Shown here in pieces: positions 2,511 to 36,212 of a stretch of 44,958 nt of DNA. The position numbers were made by a program, and so were the translations under genes. This DNA is from a virus. The notes under the pieces are model-generated. The model was not told the origin of the DNA, did not search any database, and saw only the letters and a list, made by a program, of their open reading frames with translations. Each line of letters opens with the position of its first letter. Positions within the stretch are counted from its first letter, which is position 1. The stretch lies in IMG/VR virus record IMGVR_UViG_3300027969_000163, positions 1-44,958 of that record; one strand, given 5' to 3'.

Positions 2511-5500
2511 TGGCAATATCAGACAAAGACATATTTGATTACTTTGCATCGCCAGATAAAAAGTCTGATGAGCAAATTGCTCGTGACATGGATACTTACC
2601 GTGTAACGCCAGAAGATGTTGCTCGCGTTACTGGTGCAGACCTTGGAAATGTACAGTCTCGTTATCAAGCGGCTTCTGCTCCAGCTAATCCAGCAGGTCT
2701 TGCTTCACTTCCCGGCGCAAATATTACTGCAAACAATACAACTTCTGGATTAGGTTCTTTAGCTGCAACTAAAGGTACGGATTTAATAACAGATAGTGCT
2801 ACAGATTTAAATTCAAACATCACAAAAGTAGTCACAAATCCTTATGACTCTATTACTTCAGCACTAAATAAAGGTGCTTACGATACAGTTGGTGGTCTAC
2901 TTAATAGTACTGGATTAACTGAATCTCAGTTTAAGTCTTACTATAATTTTGATGACAATCTTGCAGATTTTGTATTTGGACGGGGAAGTTATGCGCCCAA
3001 GGTAATAGATACAGTTGTCGGTGCTGCGGGTAACGATACTTTGGTTGGTGCAAAAGGTAACGATACAGTTGTTGGTACTAAAGGTATTGATACTTTAGTT
3101 GGTGCTGTTGGTAACGATACTCTAGTTGGTGCTGCGGGTAACGATACAGTTGTTGGCGCTACAGGAAGCAATAATTTAAATAATGTTTTTACACAAATTT
3201 CAAATGCGTGGGTCAACGGTGACTATGAAGAAACAGCAAAGCTATTAAAAGCCAATAACATAACGCCAAAGCAGCTTCAAGATCATTATCAACTTGGTGA
3301 TTCAACATTAGACTTTGTTTTACAACAAGGAGTATATGGGCCTAAAGTAAGTACTTTTGTATCTCCAGTAGTTTCTGTTTCACCAAAAACTATTGATAGT
3401 TTATTTGTTACTGGTAGTGATGGGAAACTGCTAGACGTTCCCGGTTATGGTGAAGTCAATGCTTCTACCCTTAACACATGGGAGCCTTGGCGCTTAGAAA
3501 TTCTGGGTATTACCAAGAATGCTGATGGTACTTTTGGTTATACCGGTGGCCCAGCTTGGACAACTGCTACAGGTACAAATAAATCTTTGTTTGACCAGAT
3601 TAACAACATCTCTAATCTTGAAGGGATGAATAGTCTTTTTACAGGCGGCGCATTAGGAAAAGACAAAGGCGGCTTAGGTTCTAAAGAAGCTGTTCTGTGG
3701 GACTTTGCAAATAAGTTAGCTGCCGAAGATATTACAAGTCTTGCTGATATTGGCAAACGCACAGTTACAAAAACCAGAGAAACTGAATCTGGCACAGAAG
3801 AATATCAAGAAGAAGAAATCTATAACAAAAAAACTGGCAAAGCTTTTAACATTCAAGGTACAACGTTAGGTAATAACGAAACCAACTATGGGTTTACGTT
3901 TACCAATACTGGTTTAGCTATTCCTACAACTACAGAAGTTAAGAATGGCTGGGCTGACTTTAAAGAGAACACTCTTCCAGTAGTTTTAACTGCTGTATCT
4001 TTAGCATACCCACCAGCAGCCCCTTACATTCAAGCTTACAACGCTGCCAAGGCTGCACAGAATGGCCAGTGGGCTTCTGCTGCTTTTAGTGCATTAACTT
4101 CAGCTTCAGGGTTTGCTGCTGATGTTACTTCGGAGATCAATGCTCTTATTAAAGCAGGTGATCTTGCCGGCGCAGAACAGCTTTATAACAATAGCTGGTT
4201 AGCTCAAAATGTTGGTAATATAAAAACAGCCAAAGATGCGGCATCAGTAATTAATGCTCTTGATACCAAGAACCTAGCTGGTGTAATCAATTCCGGTATG
4301 AACTTAGCAGGCACAACACTGCCACCAGAAATTCGTACTGCTGTTAACTGGGCTAACCTTGGTAACGCCATAGCCAACAATGACTATGCAGGTATGGCTA
4401 ATGCGGCTAGTACTCTGACAGGTAGTAGTGATTTAAAGATAGCGGCATCTGCTGCAAACTTTATAAAAGCATTTAACTCTGGCAACTTGTCTGCTATAGC
4501 ATCCGCCGGTACAAACTTTGGCGATACGATTAAAGGTTTTGGCAATGCCACTGATACATCAACTACAAAAGTAGCTTCAACAGGATCTAACATTGTTGTT
4601 GGAATAGATGCTGATGGAAAACCTGTAACTTTAGATCAAATTGAATCTTTATTTACTGGGAGCTATCCAACATCTTTAGCAACTGCTGCGGCAGGTACAG
4701 GTTTTGTATCAGATTCTGGAACTGGCTTTTCACAAGTTTATCAAATACCAAATACATCTAAACAGGGTGATGTAGCGTATGGCTGGAAATACTATTCAGA
4801 TGGAACAGCTATTTCACCAACTGGTCAGGTGTACCAAGATAATCAAGCTGTCACTTTAACTGAAGCAGAAAAAATACCATATACAAATACTGGTGTTGGT
4901 GGCGGTGCTACTGCTGCATATTTACTATCAAATAGCCCACAAATTTATAGTAACTTAGCTAACAAAATTTCTGAATCTGCAATACCAGTTGCAATAAATA
5001 CATTAAAGAACTGGTGGGAAATTAATCCAGCTTCTCAATATAAAAATGTTAATGAAGTAGATACTGACGCATTTAGAAGTTATTTAAAAGCTCAAGGCAT
5101 ATCAGATTCTAATATTGATTATGTTGTTGATGCAGCTAAGAGTGCTGTTGGTGATCTTATTTCTAAAACTAATGTAGATGTAGATACATCTACGGCTAAA
5201 GCTAAAACTATCTTAGATACTATTGGTACTAAGGTTGCTGTAACTGAGGCAGATGCAGCTACAAGCGCGGCCAATATTGTTAAAGCTCTTAGTACAAATT
5301 CATTAAGTGCTTCTAATGATGCAGAAGTTAAAGCAAAAGCATACCTTTTAGAACTTGCTCAAAAGAGCGGTCAAGGTGGTTATGTTAATGCTAGTTTTAT
5401 TAATAGTATTGCAGATGCAATTACGGATGTTGCAAAAAGTGGATCTACAAACCCAATTAAAATTGTAGAAAACTTACTGAAAAGTGCTGACTTTACTCAG

Positions 5501-7420
5501 TTGACTGGTTATAAACAAGGTGCTTTTGATGATTTCATGGGCATTATTACATCGCCTTATGCTACTGAAGGTACTCAGACTGTATTTAGACAGCAGTTAA
5601 ATAATGCAATTCTTACTAATCCCGAAGATGCAAATTTACAGTCAGAGTATGCAAAACTATATGGCAATGAATGGTCTGAATCAGATGCTGGCCAAGCATG
5701 GATAGCTTTAAATTCTCTTCAAACTGGAAATACTGGTGTTGGTAAAGTTAATTCAATTTTAGATGCAAAAGGAAATGTTTTATATAGCGTGCCTGTAACT
5801 TTTGATACTAAAGCTGGTGGTAATGAAGAAACTTATGGCGCTTTTTATAATCCAGCCACTGGAGAAACTAGATATTCTCTAAAAATTGCTGGGAGTTCCG
5901 CATCAATACCTGACTTTAATTCATTAAGTACTGTTAAGCCATATTTAAATGAAGATGGTGAATTAACTCAAGAAGTTAAAACAGTTCAAGCAACTCCTGC
6001 TGTTACTGGAAGTAAAACAATATTGTTTTATGACGAGGATGGTAAGCCTGTTTATAAAGATGACTTAGACAAGATTACTTCTTTTGATCCAGCAGTAACA
6101 ACTACTCCTGCTGTTACAGCTACTCCAGTTGTTTCTGTTTCACCTGCTGTTACTCCATCAGTTAGTGCATCTATTAAAGTTGTTCCAACGGTAGTGACTA
6201 CACCTGTTGTTAGTCCTGATGTAACTCCAGAAGTAACCCCTGTTGTAACACCGGGCGTATCGGTTACACCAGTGGTCACACCAAATGTATCAGTTACACC
6301 AGAAGTATCTGTTACTCCCATAGTTACTCCAAATGTTTCCGTAACACCAGTAGTGACTCCAGATGTATCGGTAACTCCCGTGGTCACACCTGAAATATCT
6401 GTCACTCCAGTTGTAACACCTGAAATATCTGTTACTCCTATTGTTACACCAGAGATTTCCGTAACGCCCGTGATTACTCCGGAAGTGTCCGTAACTCCAG
6501 TTGTAACCCCGGAAGTATCTGTTACGCCAGTTGTAACGCCTGTGGTGTCAGTAACTCCAGAAGTTACACCTGTTGTTTCTGTAACTCCGGTAGTCTCTCC
6601 AGTAGTGTCCGTCACACCAGAAGTTACTCCAGTGGTATCTGTGACACCAGAGGTTACGCCCGTGGTTTCTGTGACCCCAGAAGTTACGCCTGTAGTATCT
6701 GTAACTCCAGAGGTAACTCCGGTTGTATCTGTGACCCCTGAAATAACACCAGTTGTATCGGTTACCCCAACTGTGGTTCCATCAGTAACGCCTACTGTAT
6801 CCGTAAAACCTACAGTTACTCCTAGCGTATCTGTTGTACCTACACCAAGTGTATCTATTACGCCTACGGTTACTCCTAGCGTATCTGTAACTCCAACTGT
6901 TACGCCATCGGTGTCTATTACACCTACGCCTAGCATTAAACCTACGCCAAGTATTACCCCAAGTGTTTCTGTAACGCCGACGGTTACACCTACGCCTAGT
7001 ATTACACCGACTCCAAGCGTATCTGTAACACCTACTCCAAGTATTACACCTACGCCTAGTATTACACCGACAGTGCGAATTAGTCTGACACCTACTAAGT
7101 CTGTTGAGCCGTTCACAATGCCTCAAGCACAGAACATTGCTGCTGCTTTTGGCCTACCTCAACTGGCTAATGTCTTCTACTACGGTAAAGAGTTTGGCTC
7201 TAAGAAGCAAAAGTTAAATAAAAAGGGTGAACTTGAGGATGAAGATTACCGCGCTCTCAGTGTGACTAAAGCGGGAGCACAGGGAGAACTTATGGAAGAC
7301 ATTGCCGAAGAGAAGAAAAACAAGGAAAATAGCACTGATGACGCATTGGATTTGGTGTTAGGTAAATCTAGTGATTCAATGTCTTTTGAAGACTTAATTA
7401 ATATTGTGAAGGGTGGCTGA
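2510..7420 (+). CDS. Very large repeat-rich appendage-like virion protein
   Basis: 1636 residues from ATG 2510, whose A is the last base of the previous stop; an in-frame ATG 15 bases upstream is less likely because it would deepen the overlap. Visible modules, in order: a helical module at about residues 5-56 (DIFDYFASPDKKSDEQIARD, ending VQSRY); two related modules ending FVFGRGSYAPKV and FVLQQGVYGPKV; between them six GNDT-VVGA repeats; a long Ala/Asn/Thr-rich helical middle; a stalk of about 340 residues made of VTPxVSVTP repeats (about 1190-1540); and a charged C-terminus. There is no signal peptide. The architecture fits a fibre, appendage or long virion protein. I do not recognise a precise family. 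Confidence 0.75.
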   Translation: MAISDKDIFDYFASPDKKSDEQIARDMDTYRVTPEDVARVTGADLGNVQSRYQAASAPANPAGLASLPGANITANNTTSGLGSLAATKGTDLITDSATDLNSNITKVVTNPYDSITSALNKGAYDTVGGLLNSTGLTESQFKSYYNFDDNLADFVFGRGSYAPKVIDTVVGAAGNDTLVGAKGNDTVVGTKGIDTLVGAVGNDTLVGAAGNDTVVGATGSNNLNNVFTQISNAWVNGDYEETAKLLKANNITPKQLQDHYQLGDSTLDFVLQQGVYGPKVSTFVSPVVSVSPKTIDSLFVTGSDGKLLDVPGYGEVNASTLNTWEPWRLEILGITKNADGTFGYTGGPAWTTATGTNKSLFDQINNISNLEGMNSLFTGGALGKDKGGLGSKEAVLWDFANKLAAEDITSLADIGKRTVTKTRETESGTEEYQEEEIYNKKTGKAFNIQGTTLGNNETNYGFTFTNTGLAIPTTTEVKNGWADFKENTLPVVLTAVSLAYPPAAPYIQAYNAAKAAQNGQWASAAFSALTSASGFAADVTSEINALIKAGDLAGAEQLYNNSWLAQNVGNIKTAKDAASVINALDTKNLAGVINSGMNLAGTTLPPEIRTAVNWANLGNAIANNDYAGMANAASTLTGSSDLKIAASAANFIKAFNSGNLSAIASAGTNFGDTIKGFGNATDTSTTKVASTGSNIVVGIDADGKPVTLDQIESLFTGSYPTSLATAAAGTGFVSDSGTGFSQVYQIPNTSKQGDVAYGWKYYSDGTAISPTGQVYQDNQAVTLTEAEKIPYTNTGVGGGATAAYLLSNSPQIYSNLANKISESAIPVAINTLKNWWEINPASQYKNVNEVDTDAFRSYLKAQGISDSNIDYVVDAAKSAVGDLISKTNVDVDTSTAKAKTILDTIGTKVAVTEADAATSAANIVKALSTNSLSASNDAEVKAKAYLLELAQKSGQGGYVNASFINSIADAITDVAKSGSTNPIKIVENLLKSADFTQLTGYKQGAFDDFMGIITSPYATEGTQTVFRQQLNNAILTNPEDANLQSEYAKLYGNEWSESDAGQAWIALNSLQTGNTGVGKVNSILDAKGNVLYSVPVTFDTKAGGNEETYGAFYNPATGETRYSLKIAGSSASIPDFNSLSTVKPYLNEDGELTQEVKTVQATPAVTGSKTILFYDEDGKPVYKDDLDKITSFDPAVTTTPAVTATPVVSVSPAVTPSVSASIKVVPTVVTTPVVSPDVTPEVTPVVTPGVSVTPVVTPNVSVTPEVSVTPIVTPNVSVTPVVTPDVSVTPVVTPEISVTPVVTPEISVTPIVTPEISVTPVITPEVSVTPVVTPEVSVTPVVTPVVSVTPEVTPVVSVTPVVSPVVSVTPEVTPVVSVTPEVTPVVSVTPEVTPVVSVTPEVTPVVSVTPEITPVVSVTPTVVPSVTPTVSVKPTVTPSVSVVPTPSVSITPTVTPSVSVTPTVTPSVSITPTPSIKPTPSITPSVSVTPTVTPTPSITPTPSVSVTPTPSITPTPSITPTVRISLTPTKSVEPFTMPQAQNIAAAFGLPQLANVFYYGKEFGSKKQKLNKKGELEDEDYRALSVTKAGAQGELMEDIAEEKKNKENSTDDALDLVLGKSSDSMSFEDLINIVKGG
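3009..3171 (+). repeat. Six short tandem repeats coding GNDT-VVGA units
   Basis: Roughly 30-base units (core GGTAACGATAC, then AGTTGTTGGTGC) repeat about six times and encode ten-residue units of the type VVGAAGNDTLVGAKGNDT. They join two related helical modules of the appendage-like protein. The units lack the nine-residue GGxGxDxUx spacing of RTX calcium-binding repeats. Confidence 0.75.
6103..7095 (+). repeat. Low-complexity VTP/VSVTP coding repeat (stalk)
   Basis: About 1 kb codes for degenerate repeats of V-T-P-x-V-S-V-T-P, changing near base 6770 into TPSxSxTPT repeats. Synonymous codons vary strongly (gtt, gta, gtg, gtc; act, aca, acg, acc) while the peptide pattern is kept. That indicates selection on the protein rather than very recent DNA-level expansion. 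The antisense frame is open throughout only as a by-product. Confidence 0.85.
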
Positions 7421-13900: not shown

Positions 13901-16245
13901 ACGGTGCACTGGAAGGCATCATGTTCCACGGCCATGTCTTTAACGACGGTGGTGCATTGAACATTAAACCTAACACCAAGGGTTTGATTGAAGCTTTACA
14001 ACCTTTGGGTAATGAGGTTGACCGTTACCAGATGTGGGTTGCACTGAACCGCGAAGCTCGCCTGCCAGAAGAGAAGCGTTCACGCAATGAAGACATGGAT
14101 TACTTGGTGCCTAACCGTGCCAAGTTAGCTGAAGGTACTATTAACGGTAAGTCAAGACTTGATCTGTACAACTCTGTTCTTAATGACATGAACGGAATTA
14201 ACAAGTCAGTGCTTGATGTAGCTTTGGATCAAGGTCTAATAGATCAGGCAAGCTACGACAACTTTGCTGGTGACATGTACTACATTCCTTTCTATCGTCA
14301 GATGGAAGAGGACGTTAAAGGTGGTAAGACTCCTTCGGGCTTGACCCGTCAGAACTTCTCTAAAGCTTTGAAGGGTGGTAGTGATCGTCCGTTTGGTGAT
14401 TTGATGGAGAACACTCTGCGTAACTGGAGTCACATCCTGTCTGCGTCGATGAAGAACCAAGCTGCTGTTACGACGATTAAAGATGCAGCCAAGTTGGGTG
14501 CTGTTGAACCTGCGTCTGAGCCGGGTAACGATACAGTTGTTGTTAAAGTCAATGGTGAGAACCAATACTTTAAGATCTTAGATCCTCTCTTGCTTGAGTC
14601 AATTTCATCTATCGGTTATTTAGGGCCGCAGTCTAAGTTCTTAGATGTGTCTCGTAACTTTAAGAACCTGTTGCAGTACGGCGTTACGATGTCTCCTGCG
14701 TTCAAGGTAAACAACTTGTTCCGTGACTCGGTTCAGGCTATGGCTGTGTCCGGCTTGAAAAAAGATCCTGTTAGCAACGTGATGCGTGGCTGGGCTGATT
14801 CTGACAAGAACAACCCTGCACACATTTCTGCTCTGGCCGGCGGTGCTATCTTTAACTTTGGTACAGCTTATGAGGGTAATCAATCCAAGCTGATTAAGAG
14901 GTTGATTGAAAAGGGTGTCAAAGAGTCTGACATTCTTGACACACCAAGCAAAATCAAAGATGGTCTGGCTAAGTTATTTGAGAAGTATGAAGAACTTGGT
15001 AACAAGTCTGAGGCAGCTAACCGCATGGCGTTGTACACACAACTGCGAGAGCAGGGACTGACGCACCTCCAAGCATCGTTTGAAGCTCGTGACTTGATGG
15101 ACTTTTCCATGCAAGGATCGTTCGGAGCTTTCCGTTATTTGACTCAGGTCGTACCTTTTATGAATGCACGTATTCAAGGCTTGTACAAGCTGGGTCGTGA
15201 CGGCATTCTTCCTACGAGCCGTGTGTTCTACAACTCACTGACTGGTAAAGAGATTGACCTTGACGATAAGAAGAAGGCTCAGGCTTTCTCTATCATTACA
15301 AGTGCAGTCTGCCTTGCTTCGCTTGCGCTGTACGGTGCATTCAAAGACGACGAAGAGTTCCAGAAGCGCAGTGACTGGGATAGAGATAACTTCTGGTGGA
15401 TCCGTCTGCCCGGCATGGAAGCGGCTCTTCGTATACCTAAGCCGTTTGAGATTGGTGCTTTGGGTACAGTGGCCGAGCGCACAGCCGAGCAGATCTTTGA
15501 TGCCGACTCAGAAGGTAAGCAGTTCACAAATGCTCTTACCCGCATGATGTTTGACACATTTGCGATGAACCCAATGCCGCAGCTTATTAAGCCAGTGGTT
15601 GACCTGTACGCTAATAAAGATAGCTTTACTGGTGCGCCTATTGAGACTGCTGGAATGGAAGCCTTGTCTAAAGCTGAGCGTAAGGCTGACACCACAAGTC
15701 CTTTGGCTCTGGCTCTATCTCCTTTGCTGAACATAGCTTTGCCAGAAAAAGCAGAGTTAAGCCCAGTTCAGGTGGATTATGCTATTAAGGGCTACTTAGG
15801 TTGGCTAGGTGGAACAATTGCTACTACTTCTATGTACGCTGTCATGCCGTTCAAAGAGGGTGCTTACCCAGATACTCAGTGGATGGATAAGGCCAGCCTT
15901 GGATTTGTCAAGACTCTTCCGGCCAACATGTCTCAGTACACAACTGCGTTCTATGAGAACAACAAGCAGATCCAACAAGCATTTGCTGACATGCGTCACT
16001 ATTCTGCAATTGGCGAGATGGATAAAGTCCAAGAGATCATGGAAGAGAAGGGTGACAAGATTGCTCTTCAGAAGATGTACACCCAGACCTCTAAGCAAAT
16101 GGCTAACATCCGTCAGCAGATCTCTGTTGTAACTAACGACAAGTCTATGGACGGAGCAACCAAACGTGAGGAGATTGACCGCATGAAAGAGTTGATCTCC
16201 ATGCTAGCTAAACAAGCTGAAGATACCCGTAAATTAATGAAGTAG
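10972..16245 (+). CDS. Giant polyvalent ejection protein with metallopeptidase motif
   Basis: 1757 residues, starting inside the previous stop. N-terminus about 1-340: Gly/Ala-rich helices (VVGGIGSLVQLPGQLYGLA, AGAVGAGGVQQGADVGAGAY) that could cross or disturb membrane. Middle: a Pro-rich linker, then a zincin-like site H753-E754-S-V-H757, with E811 (FTAEAMSN) as the likely third zinc ligand; its helix context VHESVHALT matches the gluzincin pattern. From about 1230 on, NLLQYGVTMSPAFKVNNLFR, then VPFMNARIQGLYKLGRDG, resembles the C-terminal domain of large phage and plasmid polyvalent proteins (LPD38 type). Such proteins are injected with DNA and act in the host cell. The protease activity and its target are inferred. 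The stop TAG lies in a 24-base palindrome. Confidence 0.8.
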   Translation: MATAEQYAQWLVQNQDKKGSPDFDTVASAYRSLRTAPAPVAPSTERTYGEAAKDIGAGVVGGIGSLVQLPGQLYGLATGDFSKTGALGAGEGISKYAEEMKSAGLKAREAERSRKVAESAKEGQFQAFGTALSETVKDPGLLLSFIAEQAPQLLIPFGAARGVGMAARGLGAAEATAGKAAVAGAVGAGGVQQGADVGAGAYENIYKELVSKGASPAEAAEGSLRLARQAGAAAGTISLLAQRLPGARQLEEVLAGVPGKGIAGLGGRLRTAGSTAAGETLGEIPEEVGGKFVSNLAMQQVKPEQSLTEGLGEAAAMATIGGVGLGGAAGLARRPGAVAPPPPKSEFDPNNLSSDIVKQIESIVGIKPEQEQQPMLNAEEAAQQRVNLLAKKVNADEQAQIEKAAKEGIPPQVPEVPTPDTSKPSLAEQVPVATPREDLEAKQAQVDQLRLDAGLPTGESSKTPGVQPEVAQVQETPVPKIVDTRALDERAAQNRLLVMQNMLKNQGGDPDSLTIIPHPQIEGKFSIQSLDVPVKFTKDLPETAINRPETPKIIDPIEAYLEVAKRTNTPASMRLIRDYEAGIVTKEDIQAAVDAERKANQPLPINYKGNGEPWFVAPDKYRIKGDRGERYVPLFDESKIAEEPFRPPPPKTKNELPKNLGEYKLRMPRAYDNPVYRQANQQSNFKMLADAMSTSPNPIYKRIGELSQKIASKVTLHKPGALQKRSWLGQYDPNDNSIKMRPSHAGDEWTNVHESVHALTVYAQRNPTPAQKPYVDQINNLFEHVKKELKKKGYNKNNIYGLTDPLEFTAEAMSNVEFQYMLMQIPYPGKKSTWTKFVELVADLLGITDTNALTEVMNLVDKLGQKAGGRNSTITPMEVMGSEEAPSRVEKVKQKASEFLQKNKPLTSENLPGLPPEFVTASNNVFKPQSRTIVEKITDMQDRFWQRLAQGIADQYRTIKDYSPVGYMQARLSKTVDGALEGIMFHGHVFNDGGALNIKPNTKGLIEALQPLGNEVDRYQMWVALNREARLPEEKRSRNEDMDYLVPNRAKLAEGTINGKSRLDLYNSVLNDMNGINKSVLDVALDQGLIDQASYDNFAGDMYYIPFYRQMEEDVKGGKTPSGLTRQNFSKALKGGSDRPFGDLMENTLRNWSHILSASMKNQAAVTTIKDAAKLGAVEPASEPGNDTVVVKVNGENQYFKILDPLLLESISSIGYLGPQSKFLDVSRNFKNLLQYGVTMSPAFKVNNLFRDSVQAMAVSGLKKDPVSNVMRGWADSDKNNPAHISALAGGAIFNFGTAYEGNQSKLIKRLIEKGVKESDILDTPSKIKDGLAKLFEKYEELGNKSEAANRMALYTQLREQGLTHLQASFEARDLMDFSMQGSFGAFRYLTQVVPFMNARIQGLYKLGRDGILPTSRVFYNSLTGKEIDLDDKKKAQAFSIITSAVCLASLALYGAFKDDEEFQKRSDWDRDNFWWIRLPGMEAALRIPKPFEIGALGTVAERTAEQIFDADSEGKQFTNALTRMMFDTFAMNPMPQLIKPVVDLYANKDSFTGAPIETAGMEALSKAERKADTTSPLALALSPLLNIALPEKAELSPVQVDYAIKGYLGWLGGTIATTSMYAVMPFKEGAYPDTQWMDKASLGFVKTLPANMSQYTTAFYENNKQIQQAFADMRHYSAIGEMDKVQEIMEEKGDKIALQKMYTQTSKQMANIRQQISVVTNDKSMDGATKREEIDRMKELISMLAKQAEDTRKLMK

Positions 16246-16265
16246 AAAAATTTAAAGTTTTCTAC
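16242..16265. repeat. 24-base palindrome, copy 1, at a convergent junction
   Basis: Half-sites GTAGAAAAATTT and AAAGTTTTCTAC form an inverted repeat with one mismatched pair. Bases 16243-16245 are the stop TAG of the polyvalent protein, and 16262-16264 read on the minus strand are the stop TAG of the glycosyltransferase. The two convergent genes therefore end inside the element. It could act as a two-way terminator, although the stem is almost all A-T, or as a protein-binding site. Confidence 0.8.
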
Positions 16266-18087: not shown

Positions 18088-18488
18088 GCTGAAAACTCCT
18101 GTGTTATGCCACGTAGCTTTTCTTGAGCACGGGCACTGTCTTTTATTTCTGTTCTTGAATTTATATCCAAGTACTCTTTCATCCAACTGGTTGCCTCTTC
18201 CTCATTAGCAATGAAGATGTGGCCACCGTCGTAGAGAAACTTGTGGAACTGGGGATCTCTACAGAGCATCCCAGCCGTTCGAACGCCATCGTTAGAGTGT
18301 TCCTGATCTCTATTCATTGGACGTTCTTCGTTATTAAGTCGCACCATAACTACTTGGTATCGAGCACCAACAAAGTCGCGTAATATTTCCTCTGGCAAGT
18401 CGTCTGGGTGTATTGAGAGTGTCAATACAAACCCAGTCTTATCTTGCTTAAGAGCTACCTTGACGCTTTCAAACTGGCTCGTTTGCAT
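18069..18488 (-). CDS. Conserved phage protein beside SSB-like gene
   Basis: 139 residues. The N-terminal part KVALKQDKTGFVLTLSIHPD, then DLPEEILRDFVGARYQVVMV, recurs in phage proteins next to ERF and SSB genes. The C-terminal half is helical, with IANEEEATSWMKEYL and SRAQ-like segments. Its start ATG overlaps the SSB-like stop by one base. The small beta-rich N-terminal domain may bind DNA or partner with recombination proteins, but this is inferred from location only. Confidence 0.65.
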   Translation of the reverse strand: MQTSQFESVKVALKQDKTGFVLTLSIHPDDLPEEILRDFVGARYQVVMVRLNNEERPMNRDQEHSNDGVRTAGMLCRDPQFHKFLYDGGHIFIANEEEATSWMKEYLDINSRTEIKDSARAQEKLRGITQEFSAWKITA

Positions 18489-18778
18489 CAGAAGGGAATG
18501 TCTTCGTCATCTACTGGAAGCTTGTTCTGCACGGGTGCATTAGTCTTCTTGTAGTTGTTAACTTTGATGCTGAAGAACTTTCCGTACTGTCCTTCTTTGA
18601 TCCAAGCACCGAGCTTCATGTTGATAGAGTCAGCGCCCTCTTGACGGGCATCTTCTAACATCTCTTTGATGAGAGAGATGTCAACATCAATACTTCCAGT
18701 GTAGTCTGGTGATTGTGGGTTGATCTTAGGCTGCTTAGCTTTGCCGAGCATTCCTGAGTTTGGGTACTTCGTGGCCAT
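18488..18778 (-). CDS. SSB-like protein with acidic tip
   Basis: 96 residues, shorter than bacterial SSB (about 170). AAAGGATAATC precedes the ATG. The last residues DDEDIPF match the conserved C-terminal tip of bacterial SSB, which docks RecO, exonuclease I, PriA and other repair proteins. The core MKLGAWIKEGQYGKFFSIKV resembles one strand pair of an OB fold. It lies next to ERF, whose annealing such a protein would assist. Binding of single-stranded DNA is inferred from tip, fold pattern and neighbours. Confidence 0.75.
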   Translation of the reverse strand: MATKYPNSGMLGKAKQPKINPQSPDYTGSIDVDISLIKEMLEDARQEGADSINMKLGAWIKEGQYGKFFSIKVNNYKKTNAPVQNKLPVDDEDIPF

Positions 18779-22118: not shown

Positions 22119-22142
22119 GCAGAAAACTTTTAAATTTTCTAC
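22119..22142. repeat. 24-base palindrome, copy 2, beside the RNA promoter
   Basis: Half-sites GCAGAAAACTTT and TAAATTTTCTAC. It ends 5 bases before the -35 box at 22148, a usual place for an upstream activator or repressor site. Its best match to the other copies is in reverse orientation. Confidence 0.75.
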
Positions 22143-22147
22143 GGGTA

Positions 22148-22177
22148 TTGCAAAGCCGGAACAGTTGTGCTTATAAT
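22148..22177 (+). promoter_or_regulatory. Strong sigma-70-type promoter for the RNA region
   Basis: TTGCAA (22148-22153), an 18-base spacer and a perfect TATAAT (22172-22177). Transcription would begin near 22184. This is one of the best promoter matches I found in the window, and no gene follows for more than 600 bases. Confidence 0.75.
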
Positions 22178-22183
22178 CCGCTC

Positions 22184-22304
22184 GTTGCTGTAGTGAGCAA
22201 TGAATTTAGGCCGTTTACACATGCGTTTCGCCTTACCTAATGACCCTGTTGGAAAGTCATTAGGCAAGGTCACTACCGAATCGCAGTTGTAAACGGCCTT
22301 TTTT
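22184..22304 (+). ncRNA. Candidate rod-shaped small RNA, about 120 nt
   Basis: The transcript from the promoter would run to a terminator. After a short hairpin (TTGCT/AGCAA, 22185-22200) almost everything folds into one rod. AGGCCGTTTACA (22208-22219) pairs with TGTAAACGGCCT (22288-22299), 12 pairs. GCGTTTCG (22223-22230) pairs with CGAATCGC (22277-22284), one mismatch. CCTTACCTAATGAC (22231-22244) pairs with GTCATTAGGCAAGG (22256-22269), one mismatch, with an 11-base loop and a 7-base bulge at 22270-22276. Six T follow. No reading frame of note is present. The shape is loosely like 6S RNA, but I cannot show relation. It may instead be the first domain of a larger RNA. Confidence 0.6.
22208..22304 (+). 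terminator. Intrinsic terminator formed by the rod hairpin
   Basis: The 12-pair base of the rod (22208-22219 with 22288-22299) has four consecutive G-C pairs near its foot and is followed at once by six T (22299-22304), then G and five more T. This should stop most transcripts. Read-through or another promoter would be needed to make RNA from the next 480 bases. Confidence 0.65.
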
Positions 22305-22310
22305 GTTTTT

Positions 22311-22790
22311 GAGACTGGGATTGTGTTGCGGGTTAGCGCCGCAAGCTCCTAAAGTGGACGAATGTTTTGATGAAACACTGCTTCATGTGAGCAGTCCCAG
22401 TCTCTCCTCCTACAGTAGCTTGCCTCAAGAAACTATCGGGTTTTGGGTTGGCACGAGGGAAGCGTAGGAAGCCGTAAGGTGTAGTCCGCAGTCCACCAAC
22501 CCTACAACGTTCCGTCTTGGGGCGAGAGCACTGGAAGATGCAAGGTGCAATCGGGGGAGTTCCGTTGTTGTCCGTGGTTCAGTCTGCGGGTGGCGGCAAC
22601 GGGCTGAATGGCCGAGCTAGACGTTGCCAAGCGACGGAAAGCATTCAGAGGTGACACAAGCTGGATTGATGTCACTCCACACGATACTAAGCTACGGCTC
22701 CGGGGATGTGGATAAACGCCTAGGTGGAGATACTCTCTCCCCTAGGCAGAGTCTTGCCCAGCCGAGCCTAGCACCCACCAAGGATGTGAA
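22311..22790 (+). ncRNA. Candidate large structured RNA or very long structured leader
   Basis: About 480 bases without an open frame of note on either strand, GC-richer to the eye than its surroundings. Paired segments: GAGACTGGGA (22311-22320) with TCCCAGTCTC (22395-22404), enclosing three hairpins (22326-22344, 22363-22377, 22378-22394); GGGTTGG (22445-22451) with CCAACCC (22496-22502); TTCCGTC-TTGG (22510-22520) with CCAA-gc-GACGGAA (22627-22639), enclosing TTCAG/CTGAA (22578-22608); GTGACA/TGTCAC (22651-22675); GCCTAGG-t-GGAGA with TCTCC-CCTAGGC (22718-22747). There is no terminal T run, so the 3' end is unknown; the HNH start follows at 22791. It recalls giant phage RNAs (GOLLD, ROOL) in size and location, but no family was confirmed. 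Confidence 0.5.
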
Positions 22791-23144
22791 ATGAACCTTT
22801 CCAATAAGTTGAAACGCAAGGCGGTGAAACTAGCTTGGGCGGTACGGGCTTCGTCCATGACAGATAACGAGGTAGCAGACGAACTGCGTAAGACGGCAGA
22901 CCCGTTCCTGTACACGGATGAGTGGAGGAAGCTTCGCCGAGAAGCTGCCGAGAGGTACGGGCTGGTGTGTTTTAAATGTGGGAGAGAGAACAGTCGCAAG
23001 TTCCCTATCAACATGGATCACATCAAACCACGTAAGTACTACCCTGAACTGTCTTTGGACATTGATAACCTACAGCCGCTTTGCGGCCCTTGCAATAAGG
23101 CTAAAGGTAACAAAGTTACAGGCGTATTTAAAACGCAACATTAG
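22791..23144 (+). CDS. HNH endonuclease
   Basis: 117 residues, AAGGATGTGA before ATG. The N-terminal helices (LKRKAVKLAWAVRASSMTDN, then EWRKLRREAAERYGLVC) lead into a zinc-supported HNH fold: C60-F-K-C63, MDHIKPRKYYPELSLD with D76-H77 as catalytic pair, DNLQPLCGPCNKAKGNK with N93, C98, C101. The form is typical of small free-standing phage HNH enzymes, which act in homing or DNA processing. Here it directly follows the structured RNA region and not a terminase. A weak terminator lies just after it. Confidence 0.85.
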   Translation: MNLSNKLKRKAVKLAWAVRASSMTDNEVADELRKTADPFLYTDEWRKLRREAAERYGLVCFKCGRENSRKFPINMDHIKPRKYYPELSLDIDNLQPLCGPCNKAKGNKVTGVFKTQH

Positions 23145-24014: not shown

Positions 24015-24253
24015 CCGATGACGATGACATCCAAGAATACTCTCGCCCCTGCCCGAACTGTGAGTACCACAGGAAACGAGCACAATTTTGGCGTGATGAA
24101 GCCTACAAGCAAGCAGGGCATCCGTTGCCTGAGCGTGAGTGGGTAGGGCTGACGGAAGATGATAAGAACTTTTTATTCCCACATGGGAAATCTGTATGGG
24201 TTCAAGAAACAGTAAAAATCATTGAAGCCAAACTCAAGGAGAAGAACACATGA
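24011..24253 (+). CDS. Small zinc-motif early protein with cassette tail
   Basis: 80 residues. A possible metal site is RPCPNCEYHRKRAQFWRDEA (CPxC then H). The middle EWVGLTEDDKNFLFPHGKS, and the end VKIIEAKLKEKNT, resemble a short protein common in phage early arrays. Its last codons (EAKLKEKNT) contain the AAGGAGAAGAACAC ribosome site of the next gene and are part of a 31-base direct repeat. Confidence 0.65.
   Translation: MTDDDDIQEYSRPCPNCEYHRKRAQFWRDEAYKQAGHPLPEREWVGLTEDDKNFLFPHGKSVWVQETVKIIEAKLKEKNT
24223..24253 (+). repeat. 31-base gene-junction repeat, copy A
   Basis: A stretch ending AAGGAGAAGAACACATGA is identical to copy B at 24456-24486, 233 bases later. It codes for the C-terminal EAKLKEKNT of one gene and at the same time supplies the ribosome site and start of the next. 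Confidence 0.9.
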
Positions 24254-30646: not shown

Positions 30647-30834
30647 GATTGTTTCCTTTTCCAGTTTTCGTAGTTATGTTTTAAACACCATTCAACCCCA
30701 TTGGTGGGTACATGGTTCTCCCATTTCTTGATGTAGGCGAGTCGTTCTTTCTCTGTTTTTGGTTCGTAATAAAACTCAGGGGGACTTTTCCCAAAGTATT
30801 TATCGTGCCAAGGGTCGGTTGTCCATTCGCTCAT
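30643..30834 (-). CDS. Hypothetical small protein, 63 aa
   Basis: 63 residues, starting with one of the repeated CATCGGATGG junctions (AAAGGAGGCCATCCG before its neighbour's stop/ATG). It is rich in aromatic residues and lysine (MSEWTTDPWHDKYFGKSPPE, then WCLKHNYENWKRK). Family unknown. Confidence 0.55.
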   Translation of the reverse strand: MSEWTTDPWHDKYFGKSPPEFYYEPKTEKERLAYIKKWENHVPTNGVEWCLKHNYENWKRKQS

Positions 30835-34977: not shown

Positions 34978-35001
34978 GTAGAAAACTTTAAATTTTTCTG
35001 T
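34978..35001. repeat. 24-base palindrome, copy 3, between array and terminase
   Basis: Half-sites GTAGAAAACTTT and AAATTTTTCTGT. Its reverse complement matches copy 1 except at the outer two bases. It lies between the leftward promoter candidate and terS, in the gene-free interval 34766-35081. Confidence 0.75.
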
Positions 35002-35081: not shown

Positions 35082-35807
35082 ATGAAAACACTAAGCAGAA
35101 AGCAGATAAGGGAAGGACTAGAACAAGTCCCAATGACCGAGCTTTTAGGCGTAGCGGGTAAAGCGTTAACAGGGAAGCAACAAGCGTTCGCCCGCGAGCT
35201 TGCGAAGGGGACAAGCAAGGCAGAGTCGTACAGAAGGGCTTACAAGCAAGATGCCAAGCCAAGCAGTCTGGCCAAAGATCCTTATACGCTAGCCAAAGAT
35301 CCAAGGATCATCCTAGAGGCCGAGCATTACAAGCTGGCTTTAGAGGGGGCTAAACATCGTACCCCTGCGGCTTTACGCGAGCTTGTAATCCAATCCCTCG
35401 TGCAAGTAGTGATTGACCCAAAGGCCAAACAATCCACCAAAGTAGCGGCGGCTAAGGTACTCGGCACAGTGACAGAGGTCGCGGCTTTCACTGAGCGTAA
35501 GGAGATCAGGACGATACGCTCAAGCGAGGACACCAAAGCCAAGATCATGGGGCAACTGCGGGAGATGCTGAACGCGGGCGCGGAGGATGTCACGTTCGTA
35601 GAGGCGGACACCCTTTTGCGCGAGCTAGCGGGCGAGACCCACCCACTCCCGACCCCCCCGAATGGCGTTGCGGAGTCCCAAGATCCTATACATACTATTC
35701 CACCCGAATCAACCCAACAAGATTTGATTATTGATGAGTCCCCACCCCCAGAAAAAGTTTCCAGCGGGACACCCACCCACCCTTTTAGGGGAGACACCCC
35801 GGCCTAG
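35082..35807 (+). CDS. terS: Terminase small subunit
   Basis: 241 residues, with AGTAGGAGAGACACAG before ATG. GKALTGKQQAFARELAKGTS, then KAESYRRAYKQDAK (27-60), is the N-terminal DNA-binding helix-turn-helix start of small terminases (Terminase_2 type). A helical oligomerisation part follows (RTPAALRELVIQSLVQVVID, then STKVAAAKVLGTVTEV). The C-terminal 60 residues are Pro/Ser/Thr-rich and disordered. It should recognise the packaging site and load the large subunit, whose gene follows after the palindrome cluster and the winged-helix gene. Confidence 0.85.
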   Translation: MKTLSRKQIREGLEQVPMTELLGVAGKALTGKQQAFARELAKGTSKAESYRRAYKQDAKPSSLAKDPYTLAKDPRIILEAEHYKLALEGAKHRTPAALRELVIQSLVQVVIDPKAKQSTKVAAAKVLGTVTEVAAFTERKEIRTIRSSEDTKAKIMGQLREMLNAGAEDVTFVEADTLLRELAGETHPLPTPPNGVAESQDPIHTIPPESTQQDLIIDESPPPEKVSSGTPTHPFRGDTPA

Positions 35808-35827
35808 AAAAATTAAAAGTTTTCTAC
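35804..35827. repeat. 24-base palindrome, copy 4 (cluster)
   Basis: Half-sites CTAGAAAAATTA and AAAGTTTTCTAC. Its first bases overlap the terS stop codon TAG. Confidence 0.8.
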
Positions 35828-35836
35828 AAAAAATTT

Positions 35837-35860
35837 CTAGAAAAATTTAAAGTTTTCTAG
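35837..35860. repeat. 24-base palindrome, copy 5 (cluster)
   Basis: Half-sites CTAGAAAAATTT and AAAGTTTTCTAG; ten of twelve pairs at the ends are perfect, with one inner mismatch pair. Confidence 0.8.
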
Positions 35861-35863
35861 GAT

Positions 35864-35887
35864 GTAGAAAAATTAAAAGTTTTCTAG
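35864..35887. repeat. 24-base palindrome, copy 6 (cluster)
   Basis: Half-sites GTAGAAAAATTA and AAAGTTTTCTAG. Its last four bases are the first four of copy 7. Confidence 0.8.
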
Positions 35888-35903
35888 AAAAATTTAAAGT
35901 TTT
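35884..35903. repeat. 24-base palindrome, copy 7, incomplete (cluster)
   Basis: CTAGAAAAATTT then AAAGTTTT; the expected CTAG end is replaced by ATGC, so the right arm is cut short. Confidence 0.7.
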
Positions 35904-35940
35904 ATGCGGTTTTTAAAAGTACAGATAAATAAGAAAATGG

Positions 35941-35958
35941 TGTCACGTAAAAGTGACA
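35941..35958. promoter_or_regulatory. TGTCAC-N6-GTGACA operator-like inverted repeat
   Basis: Perfect six-base arms (35941-35946, 35953-35958) around GTAAAA, in the leader 30 bases before the winged-helix start at 35988. The geometry fits a dimeric repressor site. It would also form a hairpin in RNA. Confidence 0.55.
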
Positions 35959-35987
35959 TGACGTTCAATGAATGTATGGAGGTAGAT

Positions 35988-36212
35988 ATGACCCCGGTGC
36001 AGAAGGAAGTGTTTTTGATTATTGATGAGTGGTGGAAGAGGTATGGGTTTAGTCCCAGTCTTAAGGATATAGCTCATCAGAGGGGCAAGATGAGTATGTC
36101 AAATACTTCTAAGATAATTAAGCGGCTTGTGAATATAGGTGTTATAAAGAAGGTGGATAGACAGGGCAGGACGATTAGACCTGTGTATATAAACTTCAGG
36201 AACCTTGAGTGA
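35988..36212 (+). CDS. LexA-type winged-helix DNA-binding protein
   Basis: 74 residues from ATG 35988, chosen for GGAGGT 4 bases upstream; an in-frame ATG at 35904 would add 28 residues with no homology-like character and lies in the palindrome cluster. MTPVQKEVFLIIDEWWKRYG, then FSPSLKDIAHQRGKMSMSNT and IKRLVNIGVIKKVDRQGRTI, follows the LexA N-terminal domain almost position by position. There is no cleavage or protease domain, so it cannot self-cleave like LexA. It sits in the late operon, and its start/stop GTGA overlaps terL. A repressor or switch protein acting at the nearby sites is the obvious hypothesis. Confidence 0.75.
   Translation: MTPVQKEVFLIIDEWWKRYGFSPSLKDIAHQRGKMSMSNTSKIIKRLVNIGVIKKVDRQGRTIRPVYINFRNLE

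Follow-up and report, generated by a model that had tools for sequence, protein, structure and literature searches.

The window, by which we mean the whole stretch of DNA that was analysed (44,958 bases), is a virus contig carrying terminase, portal, ParB-like, helicase and primase genes. The element described here (22148-22304) is flanked by a gene for a 95-aa endonuclease-like protein and by an HNH gene, and early genes lie downstream of it. No open reading frame of at least 60 aa runs across the 22148-22304 region. The features of the locus are the following:

22121..22142, no strand assigned: AT-rich palindrome AGAAAACTTTTAAATTTTCTAC, from a repeat search, just upstream of the -35; probable operator and a genus-level feature
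22148..22177, + strand: sigma70-type promoter TTGCAA-18-TATAAT, from the match score and homologous sites
22184..22201, + strand: 5' hairpin P1, with stem 22184-22188/22197-22201 and a loop holding GTAGTGA (22190-22196); cells 100% paired in 45 sequences
22208..22299, + strand: rod, from the fold and the 45-sequence alignment
22208-22219/22288-22299, 22222-22225/22282-22285, 22227-22230/22277-22280, 22231-22234/22266-22269 and 22236-22244/22256-22264, + strand: stems of the rod
22270..22276, + strand: bulge TCACTAC, with 7 Watson-Crick pairs to the P1 loop (pseudoknot or kissing helix)
22299..22304, + strand: T-run, an intrinsic-terminator-like end, from the sequence; a T-run of at least 4 in 124/124 of the homologous sites listed
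22311..22417, + strand: linker module c, a long-range stem GAGACTGGGATTGT / GCAGTCCCAGTCTC around two hairpins, present in 17 contigs
22419..22790, + strand: 3' domain of the large RNA, class d, found in 34 loci
22791..23144, + strand: HNH endonuclease gene, with Pfam HNH and PHROG HNH matches, adjoining the large RNA

The HNH gene follows the class-d RNA in some phages only (the window, L012, L048 and L107), with weaker relatives in L104 and L156, and the endonuclease is possibly a homing passenger.

Relatives were gathered via the helicase and the neighbouring endonuclease-like protein, and BLAST and alignment placed the element, with its promoter conserved, in 25 further distinct sequences. 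A motif scan found 47 viral contigs and a looser motif at least 120. The observation made in the first-pass annotation, that of a small-RNA gene with a near-perfect promoter and a rod-like fold, was confirmed and had been understated. The element recurs in at least 120 viral contigs, and its fold lies well beyond chance, with a z score of -7.4. Divergent members are present in cultured phages of Pseudoalteromonas and Vibrio, the carriers being Pseudoalteromonas phages BS5, HS2, HS1, HS5 and Pq0 and Vibrio phages NF, 1.085.O and kin. When the window RNA was compared by BLAST with cultured phage and plasmid sequences, chance matches of 19-20 bases were all that it gave. Among bacterial and archaeal chromosomes (84,980 species genomes) the strict motif had 0 matches and the loose motif four, which have no T-run and no promoter and look like chance occurrences within coding sequence. 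The gene settings of the element vary among phages and include early genes, head genes and tRNAs. A tRNA-Pro/His or tRNA-Met gene was observed 110-260 bases upstream of it in L081, L083, L088, L095, L041 and L144.

The TTGCAA-18-TATAAT promoter claimed in the first-pass annotation was borne out at 22148-22177. Its score of 10/12 is the highest of 15 matches between 16000 and 35000, tied with one other, and it is the only strong promoter-like match on the + strand between 22178 and 29932. Among the matches listed, 82% of 120 homologous sites have a promoter scoring at least 9/12, compared with 2% of control positions, and in 109/120 of these listed sites the end of the -10 sits 6-7 nt before the first base of the P1 hairpin. 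Given this fixed register, the first paired base of P1 is very probably also the first base of the RNA, which in the window would place the transcription start at 22184. The 22-bp AT-rich palindrome just upstream, about TAGAAAACTTTAAATTTTTCTA, occurs in seven intergenic copies (16243-16265, 22121-22142, 34978-34999 and 35805-35903), four of which cluster at 35805-35903 beside a small protein gene (35904-36212) whose product has a LexA-type DNA-binding domain (Pfam, 29.7 bits). The palindromes are probably operators of this LexA-type protein, with one placed directly upstream of the RNA promoter; in the alignment close relatives keep a variant at this position and distant ones have none.

The perfect 12-pair stem and six T of the earlier claim were likewise recovered within 22208-22304, the stem being formed by AGGCCGTTTACA (22208-22219) and TGTAAACGGCCT (22288-22299). 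Minimum-energy folding also upheld the rod: the segment 22184-22306 has a folding energy of -53.7 kcal/mol, whereas shuffled sequences average -28.4 (z -7.41), and 0/200 shuffles were as good. Homologous rods come in two forms, a long one of about 122 nt and a short one of about 100 nt, and above the bulge both sequence and length vary freely. Among the matches listed, 4-9 T come directly after the rod at 124/124 sites, and T-runs also follow rods of unrelated sequence; that the U-run is kept by all members, including those with unrelated rods, speaks for termination being used. With its own promoter, a stem plus U-run and no open reading frame, the locus has the sequence features expected of an intrinsically terminated sRNA gene, and the proposal of an RNA gene without coding function is supported.

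The 7-base bulge described in the first-pass annotation is present (TCACTAC) and is not free: it is exactly complementary to, and pairs with, the loop of P1, a 5' hairpin that had been overlooked. In 45 aligned sequences all 315/315 cells of this kissing helix are paired, every one by a Watson-Crick pair and none by G-U, with 86 double changes and no one-sided change, a count that overstates the number of independent events because the sequences share ancestry. The helix scores 0.717 compared with 0.195 when shuffled, and slid partners are 15-47% paired. Covariation in related phages, which had been proposed as a check, was found over the whole fold: in the 45 homologues 97.9% of the cells of the full 5' structure are paired and 28/45 pairs show double changes, with 0/500 shuffles as good and slid controls 33-43% paired. 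The contact was also evident in 124 sites that were picked by a motif using neither promoter, loop, bulge nor T-run. Among these listed matches the longest complement between loop and bulge is exactly 7 nt in 116/124 sites, its mean length is 7.0 vs 4.9 with swapped partners, and 32 different longest complements occur, nearly all of them 7-mers. The distance from the rod base to the bulge is 22-24 nt on each strand, which equals two helical turns and would suit a side-by-side docking of P1 on its own rod, to which it is joined by a linker of 5-10 nt. The kissing contact could also form between two molecules instead of within one.

This pairing bears directly on the suggestion of a 6S-like RNA. 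6S RNA is likewise a long rod with its own promoter, but it has a large unpaired central bubble that mimics an open promoter, whereas the element has no open bubble and its 7-nt bulge is paired in 45/45 sequences. As, in addition, no Rfam 6S match was found at the gathering threshold or at E up to 10, 6S is excluded. For the wider proposal, that the RNA mimics DNA in another way or titrates a protein, the long rod and the strong promoter would be suitable, but the rod is free to vary in sequence and length above the bulge, and we regard such a role as very improbable.

A noncoding stretch follows the T-run, about 400-470 bases long in annotated cultured phages and 487 in the window, and wherever enough sequence exists it holds a conserved structured RNA (22311-22790 in the window). 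Among the matches listed, 111/120 downstream stretches link in one similarity network, while in profile searches the 3' parts fall into one large class and several small ones, so that homology is not proven for all. Class d recurs in 34 loci, and in those where the element was found by sequence 110-244 bases separate the two; in the class-d consensus structure 96.2% of the cells are paired and 44/69 pairs have double changes, with 0/500 shuffles as good. Reading the upstream sequence of class-d loci that lack a BLAST or profile match to the element disclosed an upstream hairpin, a loop-complementary bulge in a rod, and a T-run. The same architecture with unrelated sequence was found in L045, L096, L105, L099, L010 and L086, the pairing in L105 being less clear than in the others; hence it is the plan, not the sequence, that is kept. 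Module c is missing from some phages and is replaced by tRNAs in Vibrio phage 1.085.O (L283 5104-5251), where tRNA-Trp starts at the end of the T-run without a gap and is followed by tRNA-Arg and then by the downstream RNA, the two tRNA genes filling the slot of module c. The sequence 'AAGGTGTAGTCCG' had prompted the idea that the 3' region is a group I intron, which was dropped as no Rfam match was found.

In the interval separating the T-run from the downstream RNA, promoter-like signals do not rise above background (7.18 vs 7.28 in controls). Because they have no promoter of their own, and because tRNA-Trp directly adjoins the T-run in Vibrio phage 1.085.O, the downstream RNA and the tRNAs most likely rely on read-through of the terminator. 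The term autonomous used in the first-pass annotation therefore holds as regards promoter and terminator, and fails in that a large promoterless noncoding stretch follows in every homologue with enough sequence.

That the 3' RNA always follows, that tRNA-Trp begins exactly where the U-run ends, and that the final U's form part of the following stem in marine phages would all suit a rod that never terminates and forms the first domain of one continuous RNA of ~600 nt, with the U-run as a linker or a processing point for RNase E or RNase P. The run of 4-9 T right after a strong stem, at every one of the listed sites and after unrelated rods too, is however the signature of intrinsic termination, and we consider a wholly continuous RNA improbable. 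The opposite extreme is a pure cis attenuator: regulated termination would serve the early operon or the large RNA, and the short RNA would be a roleless by-product. The early genes downstream in the window, the lack of another strong + strand promoter-like match before 29932 and the promoterless 3' RNA agree with this, but the genes that follow are wholly different between phages (head scaffold, adaptor, tRNA, replication), so the constant linkage to one downstream gene type expected of a riboswitch or attenuator was not found. By eye, moreover, the gene just past the large RNA seems in several relatives (L064, L093, L116, L142, L182 and L194) to have a TTGACA-type promoter of its own, which suggests separate units, and no conserved alternative antiterminator pairing was noticed. 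We hold attenuation as the sole function to be unlikely, while the guess of a terminator that controls how much transcription passes into the large structured region is upheld as one component of the whole.

ColE1 RNA II is a structured primer of ~550 nt. The similar total length, and the position of the element ahead of the ParB-like protein, helicase and primase in the window, could point to a replication preprimer or origin RNA of this kind. In Pseudoalteromonas phages, though, the element lies among head genes, and R-loop or primer evidence was not found; we give this reading hardly any weight.

From comparative sequence evidence we thus favour, with a probability of roughly 0.62, the reading that 22148-22304 comprises the promoter and the 5' pseudoknotted terminator domain of a new class of large phage RNA, from which a short RNA and a read-through RNA would be made. 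In this model the host sigma70 polymerase would start at 22184, the first paired base of P1, and as the rod emerges the P1 loop would pair with the bulge two helical turns up and lock the hairpin alongside the rod. The rod would then close on the U-run, where most transcripts probably stop, giving a very stable RNA of ~121 nt with no free 5' end. In a fraction of cases transcription would continue across the linker, be it module c or tRNAs, and the 3' domain, to yield an RNA of ~600 nt or several RNAs made from it by processing. The 5' domain presumably acts through its fold and not its sequence, as phages with unrelated sequence keep the plan. Partial termination, with both a short, stable RNA and a longer product, appears to be the simplest joint reading; strong termination at the U-run would starve the tRNAs and the 3' RNA, none would leave no short RNA, and either would count against the model.

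The element is, as judged from its sequence, an uncatalogued RNA of many aquatic bacterial viruses that matches no Rfam family. A scan of the whole window, ten relatives and five cultured-phage regions against the Rfam families (cmscan) gave tRNAs only; microRNA matches at E 0.02-0.03 were far below the cut-off and reflect any long hairpin. A literature search found no description of the element, one large catalogue of viral structured RNAs that might list part of it (that of Fremin and colleagues) lying outside its scope.

In setting the element resembles most GOLLD (RF02032), a large ornate RNA of phages and prophages with a variable 5' region, a conserved 3' region and tRNAs nearby or in the linker (PMC12286853). 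The variable 5' region, the conserved 3' region and the tRNAs are found here too, whereas the present RNA is shorter and opens with a pseudoknotted, terminator-like domain that has its own promoter in a conserved register. The GOLLD model matched 0/18 contigs even at E 10, and the whole-Rfam cmscan was silent too. ROOL (RF03087) is also a phage-borne large RNA, found near tRNA islands and containing kissing loops (PMC12286853), and it shares these features with the element but differs in sequence and layout. The ROOL model gave no match, a weak negative because the control was silent too, and the whole-Rfam cmscan had none at the gathering threshold. The RNA may therefore work like both but is not filed with them, and a GOLLD- or ROOL-like structural or scaffolding role of the long RNA is our best guess.

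Two phage transcript leaders also invite comparison. In the lambda pR' (6S) leader a strong promoter is followed by a terminator about 100-200 nt downstream, so that a short RNA is made unless polymerase reads through. The promoter and early terminator are alike, but the lambda leader leads into late protein genes and is not known to form a covarying pseudoknot, whereas here a structured RNA follows. The put RNAs of HK022 are two simple hairpins without a terminator of their own. Like the element, they form structure early in a phage transcript that may influence whether polymerase passes a terminator; they differ from its pseudoknot with a terminator-like end.

A broader reading, to which we give somewhat less than even odds, is that, across aquatic tailed phages, a portable, fold-defined cassette of promoter, pseudoknot and terminator stands at the head of large structured RNAs of several classes unrelated in sequence. 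If true, the element would be the start module of an undescribed phage RNA guild comparable to GOLLD and ROOL, and the locked terminator would set the ratio of short to long RNA. To our knowledge the purpose of GOLLD, ROOL and such large phage RNAs is unknown, and the present RNAs would add a further group with an unusually clear front module, in which promoter, start site, pseudoknot and terminator are each predicted to the base. As there are cultured carriers and published stranded RNA-seq of Pseudoalteromonas infected by HS2 (PMC7082346), whose genome KF302036 has the element near 18272-18500, expression, termination and read-through are testable at once.

Some further repeats were observed elsewhere in the window. 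A 1641-aa open reading frame, probably of a virion or fibre protein, contains in-frame tandem repeats of 30 and 27 bases at 6245-7070 and 3005-3193, with threonine/proline/valine-rich units. The sequence TCATCGGATGGTCTCCTT, the reverse complement of a ribosome-binding/start-stop junction, is repeated at 30831, 30986, 32134 and 33830 ahead of several leftward small genes, and a gene-junction repeat, TGAAGCCAAACTCAAGGAGAAGAACACATGA, has near-identical copies at 24223, 24456 and 24785 between small early genes.
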